From NCBI GenBank assembly GCA_020724415.1, contig DYHB01000004.1:1-63324 (forward strand): DNA of 63,324 nucleotides. Reading direction: 5' to 3'. Below the pieces are notes generated by a model. The model had not been told where the DNA came from and did no database searches. It was given only the letters and a program-made list of their open reading frames with translations. The DNA is from Thiobacillus sp. Its GTDB lineage: Bacteria; Pseudomonadota; Gammaproteobacteria; Burkholderiales; Thiobacillaceae. How positions within the stretch are numbered: position 1 is the first letter of the stretch; every line of letters starts with the position of its first letter. The position numbers were made by a program, and so were the translations under genes. This document shows positions 14,357 through 41,267 of the stretch, in pieces.

Positions 14357-14373
14357 TCACAGGGAGGCGAACC

Positions 14374-15705
14374 ATGGCGGGCATCAACACAAAATCCATC
14401 ATCCTCATGGGTCTTGCGGCCATGGGTGCCAGCACCCCGGCCCTGGCTGACCCTGGCGTGTATCTGGCGCCCATGCTGGGCTATCTGAACCCGGACAACA
14501 AACTGAGCAGAACCAATGATGTCTGGGGCGGGCGCCTGGCCCTGGGCAGTGTCCTGTCCGACCGCTGGAACCTGGAAGTGGGCCTGGCCAGCCATGAAGT
14601 GGGACTGCCTGGGGGTGGCCATGTCAACCAGAAGGGCTTCGGCATGGATGGCCTGTACTTTTTCAGCCGCGATCCGGCCTTCGCCCCCTTCGGGCTCCTG
14701 GGGCTCGGCTACATGCGCTCTGATTCGCCCGGTGACCGGGACAACGCCGTGACAGCCAACCTTGGACTCGGCTTTCTCAAGCAGATCAACGACCGCATGG
14801 ATTTTCGAGCCGACCTGCGCTACCGCCTGGTGGATACCGACCTGATCCAGGTAGGCACCCATCGGCTGGATGACTGGCTGATCCATCTTGGCCTCCACGT
14901 CAACCTGGGCAAGCCCGCGGCCCCAGCCATCCTCGCCAGCGGGGCAGCACCAGTGGCCGAGTCCGTACCCACCACCCCAATCCCGCCTGCCCCACCCAGT
15001 GACAGCGACGGGGACGGTGTGATTGACAGCATCGACCAATGTCCGGCCACACCCCCGGGGCGGACCGTGGATGCCCGGGGCTGTGAATTCGACAGCGACC
15101 GGGATGGCATCGTGGATGGGCTGGACCAGTGCCCCGGCACCCCGGCAGACCGCCAGGTGGATGCCAAGGGTTGCGAACCCGACAGCGACGGCGACACCGT
15201 GGTGGATGCCCTGGACCAGTGCCCCAACACCCCGACAGGCCGCCAGGTGGATGCCAAGGGTTGCGAACCCGACAGCGACGGCGACGCCGTGGTGGATGCC
15301 CTGGACCAGTGCCCCGACACGCCCAAGGGCGACACAGTGGACGAGAAGGGCTGCACCATCGCCAGCAGCATCGTGCTGAAGGGCGTGACCTTCGAGAGTG
15401 ACAAGGCCACCCTGCGCCCTGAATCCGCTAGGGTACTCGACGAGGCGGCCGAGGCCATCCAGCGCTATCCCCATCTTTCCGTGGAAGTGGTGGGACATAC
15501 CGACAGCACCGGGGGCGACGCCCATAACCAGGCACTCTCGGAGCAACGTGCCCAGGCCGTGTGCGACTACTTCATACAGAAAGGCATCGAGGCCCAGCGC
15601 CTGAAGGCCACCGGCTACGGCGCCTCCAAACCGGTGGCGGACAACAAGGACCGCCAGGGCCGCGAGGAAAACCGCCGGGTGGAATTACTGCTCAAGCCTC
15701 AATGA
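14374..15705 (+). CDS. OmpA family outer-membrane protein with thrombospondin type 3-like repeats
   Basis: 443 residues. A signal peptide (MAGINTKSIILMGLAAMGASTPALA) is followed by a beta-barrel region (about 25-190) of alternating strands such as WNLEVGLASHEVGL. Residues about 205-330 hold four 30-residue calcium-type repeats of the form DSDGDGVxDxxDQCPxTPxGRxVDxxGC. The C-terminal OmpA/MotB domain (about 335-443) binds peptidoglycan: FESDKATLRPESARVLDEAA, VVGHTDSTG, ATGYGASKPVADN and NRRVELLL. It probably anchors the outer membrane to the wall. A strong terminator lies just downstream at 15728-15753. Confidence 0.92.
   Translation: MAGINTKSIILMGLAAMGASTPALADPGVYLAPMLGYLNPDNKLSRTNDVWGGRLALGSVLSDRWNLEVGLASHEVGLPGGGHVNQKGFGMDGLYFFSRDPAFAPFGLLGLGYMRSDSPGDRDNAVTANLGLGFLKQINDRMDFRADLRYRLVDTDLIQVGTHRLDDWLIHLGLHVNLGKPAAPAILASGAAPVAESVPTTPIPPAPPSDSDGDGVIDSIDQCPATPPGRTVDARGCEFDSDRDGIVDGLDQCPGTPADRQVDAKGCEPDSDGDTVVDALDQCPNTPTGRQVDAKGCEPDSDGDAVVDALDQCPDTPKGDTVDEKGCTIASSIVLKGVTFESDKATLRPESARVLDEAAEAIQRYPHLSVEVVGHTDSTGGDAHNQALSEQRAQAVCDYFIQKGIEAQRLKATGYGASKPVADNKDRQGREENRRVELLLKPQ
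15001..15360 (+). repeat. Four tandem 90-bp in-frame repeats (calcium-type repeats of the OmpA-family gene)
   Basis: Units begin at 15001, 15091, 15181 and 15271, each opening GACAGCGAC. Units 2 to 4 share long identical stretches, for example the 27-bp block starting at 15154 and again at 15244. Each unit encodes 30 residues with an Asp-rich loop and two Cys. Confidence 0.95.
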
Positions 15706-38167: not shown

Positions 38168-39541
38168 TCAGGCCGTTCTGGAGTATCGGGGCTGGCCGGC
38201 CTGTGCCGGCTGTTTCAGGTAGTGATCGAAGCACATGGCAATATTGCGCAGGAAGAGACGCCCCAGGTCGGTCACCTGGATGCGATCGCCTGCCAGCTGG
38301 ACAAGGCCGTCGGCCGCCAGCGGCGCCAGGTCGGTGATGGCATCAGCAAAATACTGCTGAAAATCGATATCCCATTCTGTACCAAAAACTGCCATGCCCA
38401 ATTCCAGGTCACACATGACCTTGGTGATGGCATCGCGCCTGATCTGGTCATCCCTGGTCAGGCGCAGCCCACGCTCCACGGGCAGATGACCTGAAGCCAC
38501 CAACTCCTGGTAGCGCTTCACGTTTTTCTCGTTCTGCATGTAGCAATCCAGCGTCTGGCTGATGCTGGAGGCGCCAAAGGCGTAGATGTCGCAATCCTTG
38601 TGGGTGGTGTAGCCCTGGAAGTTGCGCCACAGGGTCTTGCTGCACTGAGCCTTGACCATTTCATCATCCGGCTTGGCAAAGTGGTCCAGTCCAATATTCA
38701 CGTAACCCGCCTCACCCATCCGGTCATGGATCAGCTGCTGCAAATCCAGCCGGGCCTGGAAGTCCGGGAGATCCTTTTCCAGGATCAGTTTCTGATGCTT
38801 CTTCATCCAGGGCACATGGGCGTAGGCAAACACCGCAAACCGGTCCGGGGCCCAGGCCAACGTCCTGGTCAGGGTCTCGGAAAAGCTGCTGACCGATTGA
38901 TGGGGCAAACCGACGATCAGATCCATGTTGATGCTCTGGAAGCCCAGCTCGCGGGCCCAGTCATAGACTTGGCGAATCATGGCCTCGGGCTGGACCCGGT
39001 TGACGGCCTTCTGAACCCGGTCATCCAGATCCTGGACACCGATGGACAATCGATTGAATCCCGACTCCCTCAGCGCCTGTAGATGTTCCCGGGTCAATTC
39101 CCTGGGATCCGCCTCACACCCCATTTCAGCGTCATCGGCCAGATCGAAACGCGCCCGGATCATCTCCATGAGACGGCGAATATCCTGGGGTTTCAGATAC
39201 GTGGGGGTACCGCCGCCGAAATGGAGCTGCCTGACCCGGCGTCCGGGCGCCACATGCCCCTGCACCAAGGCCATTTCCCGATCCAGATACTCCAGGTAGT
39301 GTGTGGCCTTGCTGTAATCTCCGGTCGCCACCATGTTGCAACCACAGTAATAACAAAGGGTGTCACAGAACGGAATATGAAAGTACAGTGACAAATCCCT
39401 GGCCAGGGACTGTGAACCTTGCAGCTCTTCCAGCCAGTGGCTTTCGTTGAAGCCGGCATGGAAATAGGGCGCCGTCGGGTAAGACGTGTAGCGCGGGCCG
39501 GGTTTGCTGTACTTTTCAAGCAGTGAGGTCAGGGCAGTCAT
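38168..39541 (-). CDS. hemN: Oxygen-independent coproporphyrinogen III oxidase
   Basis: 457 residues from ATG 39541. Radical SAM enzyme that decarboxylates coproporphyrinogen III in haem synthesis without oxygen. The radical SAM cluster motif is HIPFCDTLCYYCGCN (CxxxCxxC plus the extra Cys). Also visible are FGGGTPTYL, the RLSIGVQDLDDRVQ segment, the typical LDHFAKPDDEM region, GYTTHKDCD and GASSISQ. This is true HemN rather than the HemW-like paralog, as shown by PRYTSYPTAPYF at the N-terminus. It supports growth under low oxygen and supplies haem for the many c-type cytochromes here. Confidence 0.95.
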   Translation of the reverse strand: MTALTSLLEKYSKPGPRYTSYPTAPYFHAGFNESHWLEELQGSQSLARDLSLYFHIPFCDTLCYYCGCNMVATGDYSKATHYLEYLDREMALVQGHVAPGRRVRQLHFGGGTPTYLKPQDIRRLMEMIRARFDLADDAEMGCEADPRELTREHLQALRESGFNRLSIGVQDLDDRVQKAVNRVQPEAMIRQVYDWARELGFQSINMDLIVGLPHQSVSSFSETLTRTLAWAPDRFAVFAYAHVPWMKKHQKLILEKDLPDFQARLDLQQLIHDRMGEAGYVNIGLDHFAKPDDEMVKAQCSKTLWRNFQGYTTHKDCDIYAFGASSISQTLDCYMQNEKNVKRYQELVASGHLPVERGLRLTRDDQIRRDAITKVMCDLELGMAVFGTEWDIDFQQYFADAITDLAPLAADGLVQLAGDRIQVTDLGRLFLRNIAMCFDHYLKQPAQAGQPRYSRTA

Positions 39542-39626: not shown

Positions 39627-39640
39627 TGGAGGTACCTCCA
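39627..39640. promoter_or_regulatory. 14-bp perfect palindrome in the hemN 5' region
   Basis: TGGAGGTACCTCCA is a perfect palindrome centred about 90 bp upstream of the hemN ATG. It could be an operator. It does not match the FNR consensus TTGAT-N4-ATCAA. Only the symmetry is seen; regulator unknown. Confidence 0.3.
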
Positions 39641-39696
39641 CAGACCTGGGCAACAGTATTCTTATACTAAAGTTATATATCTTCAGTCTTTTGCTA

Positions 39697-39724
39697 TAGA
39701 CAAACGAAAAAAAACAGGCATAAT
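39697..39724 (+). promoter_or_regulatory. Sigma70-type promoter of the small-RNA candidate
   Basis: TAGACA (39697-39702) and CATAAT (39719-39724) are separated by 16 bp that include an A8 tract. Both hexamers match consensus at five of six positions. The predicted transcription start is about 39731. Confidence 0.65.
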
Positions 39725-39740
39725 GAAATCTACCTCCCTG

Positions 39741-39762
39741 ACCGCCGCAACGGCGGTTTTTT
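39741..39762 (+). terminator. First of two tandem terminators (inside the sRNA candidate)
   Basis: ACCGCCG/CGGCGGT stem with CAA loop, then TTTTTT (39757-39762). Confidence 0.85.
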
Positions 39763-39763
39763 C

Positions 39764-39795
39764 AGCGGCACCATTTCATGGTGCCGCTTTTTTTT
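39764..39795 (+). terminator. Second of two tandem terminators
   Basis: An 11-bp perfect stem with a TTC loop, then an uninterrupted run of eight Ts (39788-39795). Only two bases separate it from the U-tract of the first hairpin. Confidence 0.92.
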
Positions 39796-39890
39796 GCCCG
39801 TTTTGTCGGCCAGCCTGACCCGGCAGGGCCGGCAAGGCATGGGCACACCGTGGTGGATCAAGGATAATGGGGCTTGTCTTGGGAGCCCAC

Positions 39891-41267
39891 ATGTCCAAAG
39901 TACCGTCTTCCATATTCAAGGCCTATGATATCCGAGGCATCGTCGGCCAGACCCTCACCCCGACCGTGGTCGAGTTGATCGGACGCGCCCTGGGCAGCGA
40001 AGTGGCCAGGCTCGGCCAGCGCGGTGTGGTCATCGGACGCGACGGCCGCCTGTCCGGGCCGATGCTGGCCGAGGCCCTGGCGCAGGGTCTGCAGAGTACC
40101 GGCATGGATGTGATCGACCTGGGCATGGTCACGACGCCCATGACCTATTTCGGGGCCCATTGGCTGGGCACTCATTGCGCTGTCATGGTGACCGGCTCCC
40201 ACAACCCGCCCGAGTATAACGGCCTGAAGATGGTACTGGCTGGGGAAACCCTGGCCGGAGACGCCATCCAGTCCCTCCGGGCCCGCATCGAGGCCGACGA
40301 CTTCACGGCTGGCAAGGGCCATTATCGCCAGCATGATCTTGCCCAGGACTATATTCAGCGCATTGCCGGCGACATCCAGCTGGCCCGCCCCATGCACATC
40401 GCCCTGGATGCCGGCAATGGCGTGGCCGGGGCCTATGCCCCGGCTTTGTTCGAGGCACTGGGGTGCCAGGTGGATCGGCTCTATTGCGACGTGGACGGCC
40501 ATTTTCCCAATCACCATCCCGATCCCTCCATTCCCTCGAATCTGGCCGACCTGATCCAACACCTCAAGGCCAGCGACGCCGAAATCGGCCTCGCCTTCGA
40601 TGGTGATGGCGACCGGCTGGGCGTGGTGGCCAAGGATGGCCGCATCATCTATCCGGACCGGCAACTGATGCTGTTTGCGGCCGACGTTTTGGCCCGCAAC
40701 CCCGGGGCCCAGATCATCTTTGACGTGAAATCCACCCGCAACCTATTCGACTGGATTCGTCGCCATGGCGGAGAACCATTGCTATGGAAAACGGGCCACT
40801 CCCTGGTCAAGGCCAAGATGCGGGAGACGGGCGCCCTGCTGGCCGGCGAAATGAGCGGCCATGTCTTCTTCAAGGAACGCTGGTATGGCTTCGATGATGG
40901 CTTGTACGCCGGCGCACGACTGCTGGAATGCCTGTCCCGGCTGGGCGATATCAGTACCGCCATCCACAGCCTGCCGGACACGGTCAACACACCCGAACTG
41001 CACATCCCCATGCAGGAGGGGGAGCCTCAGCAACTGATTGACGGGATACGGGAAACGGCGCGGTTCGAGGGTGCCAGCCGGGTCATCACCCTGGATGGCC
41101 TGCGGGTTGAATACCCCGACGGCTTCGGCCTGATGCGCGCCTCCAACACCACGCCCGTGATCGTTCTGCGCTTCGAGGCCGATGATCTTCCCAGCCTGAC
41201 CCGCATCCAGGAGGCCTTCCGGAAGACCTTGCTGGCCGCCGACCCACAACTTTCCCTCCCATTCTGA
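39891..41267 (+). CDS. Phosphomannomutase/phosphoglucomutase (AlgC type)
   Basis: 458 residues from ATG 39891 (GGGAG upstream). Alpha-D-phosphohexomutase that isomerises hexose 1- and 6-phosphates for exopolysaccharide or LPS precursors and glycogen. Domain 1 has the phosphoserine loop VTGSHNPPEYNGLK. Domain 2 has the Mg site AFDGDGDRLGVV. Domain 3 has the sugar-binding GEMSGHVFFKERW loop (GEMSGH), and domain 4 the phosphate-binding RASNTTPVIVLRFE. The N-terminus SSIFKAYDIRGI is typical. CorA follows 5 bp later. Confidence 0.94.
   Translation: MSKVPSSIFKAYDIRGIVGQTLTPTVVELIGRALGSEVARLGQRGVVIGRDGRLSGPMLAEALAQGLQSTGMDVIDLGMVTTPMTYFGAHWLGTHCAVMVTGSHNPPEYNGLKMVLAGETLAGDAIQSLRARIEADDFTAGKGHYRQHDLAQDYIQRIAGDIQLARPMHIALDAGNGVAGAYAPALFEALGCQVDRLYCDVDGHFPNHHPDPSIPSNLADLIQHLKASDAEIGLAFDGDGDRLGVVAKDGRIIYPDRQLMLFAADVLARNPGAQIIFDVKSTRNLFDWIRRHGGEPLLWKTGHSLVKAKMRETGALLAGEMSGHVFFKERWYGFDDGLYAGARLLECLSRLGDISTAIHSLPDTVNTPELHIPMQEGEPQQLIDGIRETARFEGASRVITLDGLRVEYPDGFGLMRASNTTPVIVLRFEADDLPSLTRIQEAFRKTLLAADPQLSLPF

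Follow-up and report, generated by a model that had tools for sequence, protein, structure and literature searches.

A probable anti-Shine-Dalgarno small RNA conserved between hemN and pmm in Thiobacillaceae and their relatives

Introduction

The closest described systems to the locus reported here are the double-hairpin small RNAs (sRNAs) around Rfam family RF02278, the Betaproteobacteria toxic sRNA: the Burkholderia RNAs ncS03/05/27/62 and bdhR1, plus S17 of Bordetella pertussis (PMC5688073, PMC11722255). RF02278 owes the name 'toxic' to the growth inhibition that it can cause in E. coli (PMC5688073). A target repressed by S17 is a sigma-54 activator, and this sRNA acts on it via single-stranded sites of the anti-Shine-Dalgarno (anti-SD) type (PMC11722255). 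Several features link RF02278 and S17 to the sRNA described below: a core of 60-70 nt, a 5' single-stranded anti-SD tract, two hairpins of which the second is a terminator with a U-tail, genome-scattered copies and occurrence in betaproteobacteria. The sequences, however, are different and give no covariance match; the loop of hairpin 1 in RF02278 shows a second anti-SD, UCCUCCUCC, which is absent from the present sRNA, every copy of which has GCAA(Y) as this loop. Further, S17S arises by processing of a longer RNA, whereas in the lineage of our sequence the predicted promoter would make the anti-SD the 5' end of the primary transcript.

Two further groups offer parallels. The Qrr sRNAs of Vibrio are regulated by quorum sensing and are unrelated to the present sRNA in sequence and structure. 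They are a precedent for multi-copy sRNAs with sigma-54 promoters, as seen in part of the family reported here (PMC10162802). The alpha-r14/NfeR1, CcsR and cuckoo RNAs share with it an ultraconserved unpaired anti-SD motif beside stems that are free to drift, but these are alphaproteobacterial RNAs in which CCUCCUCCC is repeated in several hairpins (PMC10746234).

A predicted sRNA gene between hemN and pmm

The window, by which we mean the whole 63,324-nt stretch of Thiobacillus sp. DNA that was analysed, comes from a draft genome of 259 contigs that is 94% complete. Its plus strand contains, at 39732-39795, ACCTCCCTG, two perfect hairpins and U-tracts, with a sigma-70-type promoter upstream. 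The features of the locus are:

38168..39541 (-): hemN-type radical SAM gene, the divergent syntenic left neighbour
39697..39724 (+): predicted sigma-70-type promoter TAGACA-16-CATAAT, 10/12 matches in a consensus scan
~39730-39732 (+): start site expected from the promoter position; the RNA would then begin (U)ACCUCCC
39732..39795 (+): whole predicted sRNA, ~64-66 nt; covariance model match of 87.4 bits
39732..39740 (+): anti-SD segment ACCUCCCUG, unpaired except for its last G and essentially invariant in all copies
39740..39758 (+): hairpin 1, an 8-pair stem with a CAA loop
39757..39762 (+): first U-tract (U6), after hairpin 1; at least U4 in most orthologs
39764..39788 (+): hairpin 2, the intrinsic terminator stem, 11 pairs
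39788..39795 (+): terminal U8 tract, predicted terminator and likely Hfq tail
39863..39868 (+): predicted -10 (GATAAT) of the downstream pmm, past the sRNA terminator, from comparison of 36 orthologs; pmm transcription would start at ~39875
39891..41267 (+): pmm, phosphoglucomutase/phosphomannomutase (phosphohexomutase) gene, the syntenic right neighbour

The sequence-only reading that drew attention to this locus had described a near-consensus promoter, two perfect hairpins each followed by a U-tract, and a position between hemN and a phosphohexomutase gene with no plus-strand gene ending there. All of this is borne out: the promoter matches at 10 of 12 positions, the stems of 8 and 11 pairs are followed by U6 and U8 respectively, hemN on the left lies on the minus strand and is divergent, and pmm starts at 39891. 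The same reading took the 5' TACCTCCCT to be unpaired; the segment is indeed present at the predicted 5' end, but its last bases (..UGA) lie at the base of hairpin 1, which leaves UACCUCCCU(G) as the truly free segment. The promoter element GGCATAAT and the downstream AATC-TACC are retained in 8/8 aligned orthologs of the window type. By inspection, a 31-codon frame from the ATG at 39723 was rejected as a small protein: it overlaps the -10 element and is thus untranslatable from the sRNA promoter.

An invariant single strand beside covarying stems

The 66-nt strand 39731-39796 is predicted to fold into the two hairpins with UACCUCCCU free, at -32.5 kcal/mol; its dinucleotide shuffles average -14.4 kcal/mol (z -6.9), and 0/200 of them fold as low. 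The segment ACCUCCCUG is identical in 30/30 orthologs; 46 distinct copies, paralogs among them, show almost no change in it, and predicted folds of the copies leave CCUCCC unpaired in nearly all of them.

The stems behave differently. While the loop of hairpin 1 is constant as GCAA(C/U/A) across copies, changes in its stem are compensated, giving the variants ACCGCCG/CGGCGGU, ACCGUCG/CGACGGU, ACCAUCG/UGAUGGU, UCCCGC/GCGGGA, ACCUUCC/GGAAGGU, ACCGGGC/GCCCGGU and GGCCGCC/GGCGGCC. Both helices covary: among 38 sequences 98.3% of the pair cells are standard, and double changes occur at 10 pairs in 51 cells, a level matched by 0/500 shuffles, with all slid controls far lower. A fixed single strand next to drifting stems is the trace that would be expected of a strand that pairs with targets.

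Distribution across the family

A DNA search of 100 relatives recovered the sRNA in at least 35 genomes of the window's family, mostly at 80-88% identity. A pattern scan of GTDB r220, with one genome per species (84,980 species), returned 47 stretches; those with informative depositor labels belong mostly to Thiobacillaceae, Hydrogenophilaceae/Hydrogenophilales or Parasulfuritortus, with a few from Gallionellaceae or Tepidiphilus. Most of the sRNA-bearing genomes were assembled from metagenomes, and the labels of some are uncertain; one cultured host is at hand, Parasulfuritortus cantonensis LSR1, in which the sRNA (L077/L014) has a promoter of the window type. With a covariance model built from 30 orthologs, strong matches among 399 genomes of the order are confined to the window's family (Thiobacillaceae/Hydrogenophilaceae-like); of the order-wide matches outside it, at 25-37 bits, those inspected are terminators, RF02278-like or other anti-SD double hairpins.

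Tens of genomes have the element in this same position, which goes far beyond what chance would give. The seed and hairpins, whose conservation in relatives had been named as a check on the sequence-only reading, are kept there with covariation. Within the family the sRNA is not required throughout, and several genera are without it: the search of relatives gave no clear match in the genera g5, g6 and g12, and in the genomes of these that were inspected pmm stands in a different context or the segment is missing. Elsewhere paralogs lie at unrelated loci, and a genome can have as many as five copies (G003).

Relationship to described RNA families

No Rfam family reaches its gathering threshold in the window or in the 20 orthologs searched. 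A permissive scan of the window gives sub-threshold matches to ncS54, anti-hemB and mmgR only, the best being two Burkholderia sRNAs: ncS54 (RF02871) at 35.1 bits against a cut-off of 43, and anti-hemB/ncS04 (RF02837) at 32.9 bits against 49.5. The ncS54 match, seen also at 29.6-32 bits in 7/20 orthologs, rests on the two hairpins with U-tracts, and the ncS54 consensus lacks CCUCCCUG. The anti-hemB consensus, like the sRNA, includes CUCCUCCCUG, but in the loop of an extra 5' hairpin, both arms of which are missing here. The CcsR1 model gives the sRNA 11.2 bits.

RF02278 itself (cut-off 50 bits) shows no match to the sRNA up to E 5, and the same genome has its own copy of that family on another contig (G000:C31), at 69.9 bits; together with the absent UCCUCCUCC loop, this rules out membership in RF02278. 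That the locus is instead a divergent member of one of the described families (RF02278 with bdhR1/S17, ncS54 or anti-hemB) would agree with the common double-hairpin plan and the sub-threshold ncS54 and anti-hemB scores. Against the missing gathering scores, the separate RF02278 gene and the differences in CCUCCCUG and the hairpin 1 loop, we hold this to be very unlikely. On present evidence the sRNA appears to constitute its own family, similar in mode to the double-hairpin and alpha-r14/NfeR1 RNAs. The earlier description of it as new is apt for the family, since no Rfam model reaches threshold and a literature search found no study of it; it does not extend to the architecture, which was already known.

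The sRNA thus adds an Rfam-absent family to chemolithotrophic sulfur bacteria, for which our literature search found no sRNA study, and it places a second, unrelated double-hairpin anti-SD RNA alongside RF02278 within one genome. The RF02278 genes of the same family of bacteria (L037-L056) have features of their own: a ATATTAGANAATNCTAATAACAC-like element, an imperfect palindrome, lies in their promoters, and their RNAs have a longer 5' hairpin, the loop of which in L038, L041 and L056 again shows CCUCCCU.

Predicted mode of action

We consider it probable that the locus is a gene for an independent trans-acting anti-SD sRNA of ~65 nt, with Hfq-aided pairing to SD sequences as its presumed activity. 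The conserved seed and hairpins, the covariation and the predicted independent transcription unit all speak for the sRNA reading. RNA polymerase would start from the -35/-10 elements at 39697-39724 and stop at hairpin 2, yielding a transcript with ACCUCCCU at or beside its 5' end, kept open by hairpin 1. Hfq would then bind the U-tails, and ACCUCCCU would pair with the GGGAGG(U)-type SDs of several mRNAs, blocking the binding of the 30S subunit. In the lineages with sigma-54 promoters (see below) the same core RNA would carry an additional 5' hairpin, and the input signal appears to depend on the lineage.

Repression of mRNAs by covering GGGAGG-type ribosome-binding sites, probably with Hfq, is the most likely mechanism, and is the best supported because the unpaired anti-SD is invariant while the stems drift, because this genome has two hfq genes to go with the predicted U-tails, and because S17 and bdhR1 set a precedent. 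The seed-based target prediction proposed earlier yielded no conserved target in a genome-wide pattern scan, in-window duplex energies and the OmpA homologs. The genome holds 29 CAGGGAGG-N4-9-ATG sites, few of them ahead of credible gene starts. The best in-window candidate, an OmpA-family gene at 14374 (14360-15702), has 8 complementary bases; its SD, CACAGGGAGG, is complementary to CCUCCCUG throughout, and the extended 8-nt match is not kept in its homologs. Separately, the minus-strand leader predicted for hemN contains a GGAGGTACCTCC palindrome (39629-39640) whose GGAGGUA is complementary to the sRNA seed.

A real RNA could also act mainly as a sponge or decoy that titrates another sRNA, an RNA-binding protein or SDs at large, with no defined target set. 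The segment repeats the anti-SD core of 16S rRNA, which is ACCUCC. In Burkholderia, over-expression of the double-hairpin RNA ncS27 slowed growth (PMC5688073). Nothing in the analysis, however, indicates a partner for such titration. A conserved free seed with a U-tail on a short RNA is, moreover, the usual plan of an mRNA-repressing sRNA, and we see little prospect for the decoy role as the main one.

Independence from pmm

Most of the 43 distinct loci have the element ahead of pmm, both read in the same direction, and a divergent hemN to its left. This arrangement raises a further alternative, namely that it is a cis-acting leader: the hairpins would form an attenuator in the pmm 5' UTR, and ACCUCCCUG would control read-through or translation of pmm. 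In 33/36 orthologs, however, a -10 hexamer (GATAAT, TACAAT or TATAAT) follows the terminator at a near-constant distance from pmm, against 1.6 expected; because pmm thus has its own predicted -10 after the terminator, the sRNA is read as independent and not as a pmm attenuator. The gap between the terminator and pmm itself varies widely among loci. Three loci (L018, L021 and L065) keep the RNA next to a right neighbour other than pmm, paralogs occur elsewhere, and pmm is retained in genomes without the sRNA. On the strength of the separate -10, the loci lacking an adjoining pmm and the genomes that have pmm but no sRNA, an attenuator was rejected for most loci. The single locus where a leader role may apply is L095, in which pmm begins only ~25 nt past the U-tract with no visible promoter between; for the element in general this role is very unlikely indeed. 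With its own predicted promoter, an intrinsic terminator and a separate pmm promoter downstream, the sRNA gene presents itself as an independent transcription unit.

That the element is a dispersed tandem terminator or repeat lacking an RNA function, conserved merely as an insulator between hemN and pmm, is scarcely credible: two terminators do stand in series and some genomes have extra copies elsewhere, but in most loci no plus-strand gene ends ahead of the element, and terminators need neither an invariant unpaired ACCUCCCUG nor a dedicated promoter at a fixed distance.

Two promoter classes

The copies of the sRNA differ in the promoter class assigned to them, sigma factors being designated throughout by consensus. 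In 19/53 copies a near-perfect sigma-54 element (TGGCAC-N5-TTGC type) lies 32-69 nt upstream, scoring 10-12/12 consensus positions (shuffle p <=0.01), a label that reflects consensus only. The remaining copies, the window included, have no sigma-54 site above 8/12, making the distribution bimodal. In the window and its nearest relatives there is instead a sigma-70-like promoter, with GGCATAAT placed for a predicted start at ~(U)ACCUCCC. Most of the transcripts predicted from the sigma-54 promoters, which would be ~85-120 nt long, have an extra 5' hairpin. On a hemN tree the promoter class requires 7 changes by parsimony, and at least 4 across well-supported branches. Absence of RpoN was rejected as the cause of the sigma-70 promoters, as rpoN is present in almost every genome of either class.

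We lean, with some reserve, towards an exchange of promoters at a fixed locus: the syntenic sRNA, its seed and structure unchanged, would have swapped between sigma-70 and sigma-54 promoter classes several times within the family, the 5' hairpin being gained or lost alongside, so one and the same anti-SD effector would answer to different signals across lineages. If this exchange is true, the family offers a natural series for studying how the target logic of an sRNA is preserved when another input signal takes over.

Some further elements were seen around the promoters. The motif CTATATCGAAAGTATA / TATATCTTTCGTTATAG occurs upstream of the sRNA with both promoter classes and in several lineages; 11/53 copies have it with <=1 mismatch in 11 bases, against 0.26 expected. 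It is present in L008, L009, L010, L059, L068, L069, L076, L086, L092 and others, in degenerate form in the window at 39663-39677, and may be where a shared regulator binds. In L065, L071 and L084 the sigma-54 core promoter lies within an imperfect inverted repeat, GATCAGGCACAG...CTGTTACTGATC; L084, which has lost the GG and GC, has this repeat in nearly perfect form. Finally, in two genomes, sRNA paralogs (L096, L101 = L140, L131) stand between a pair of genes that by inspection are KfrA-like and XerC-like, a setting that suggests transport on a mobile or integrated element.
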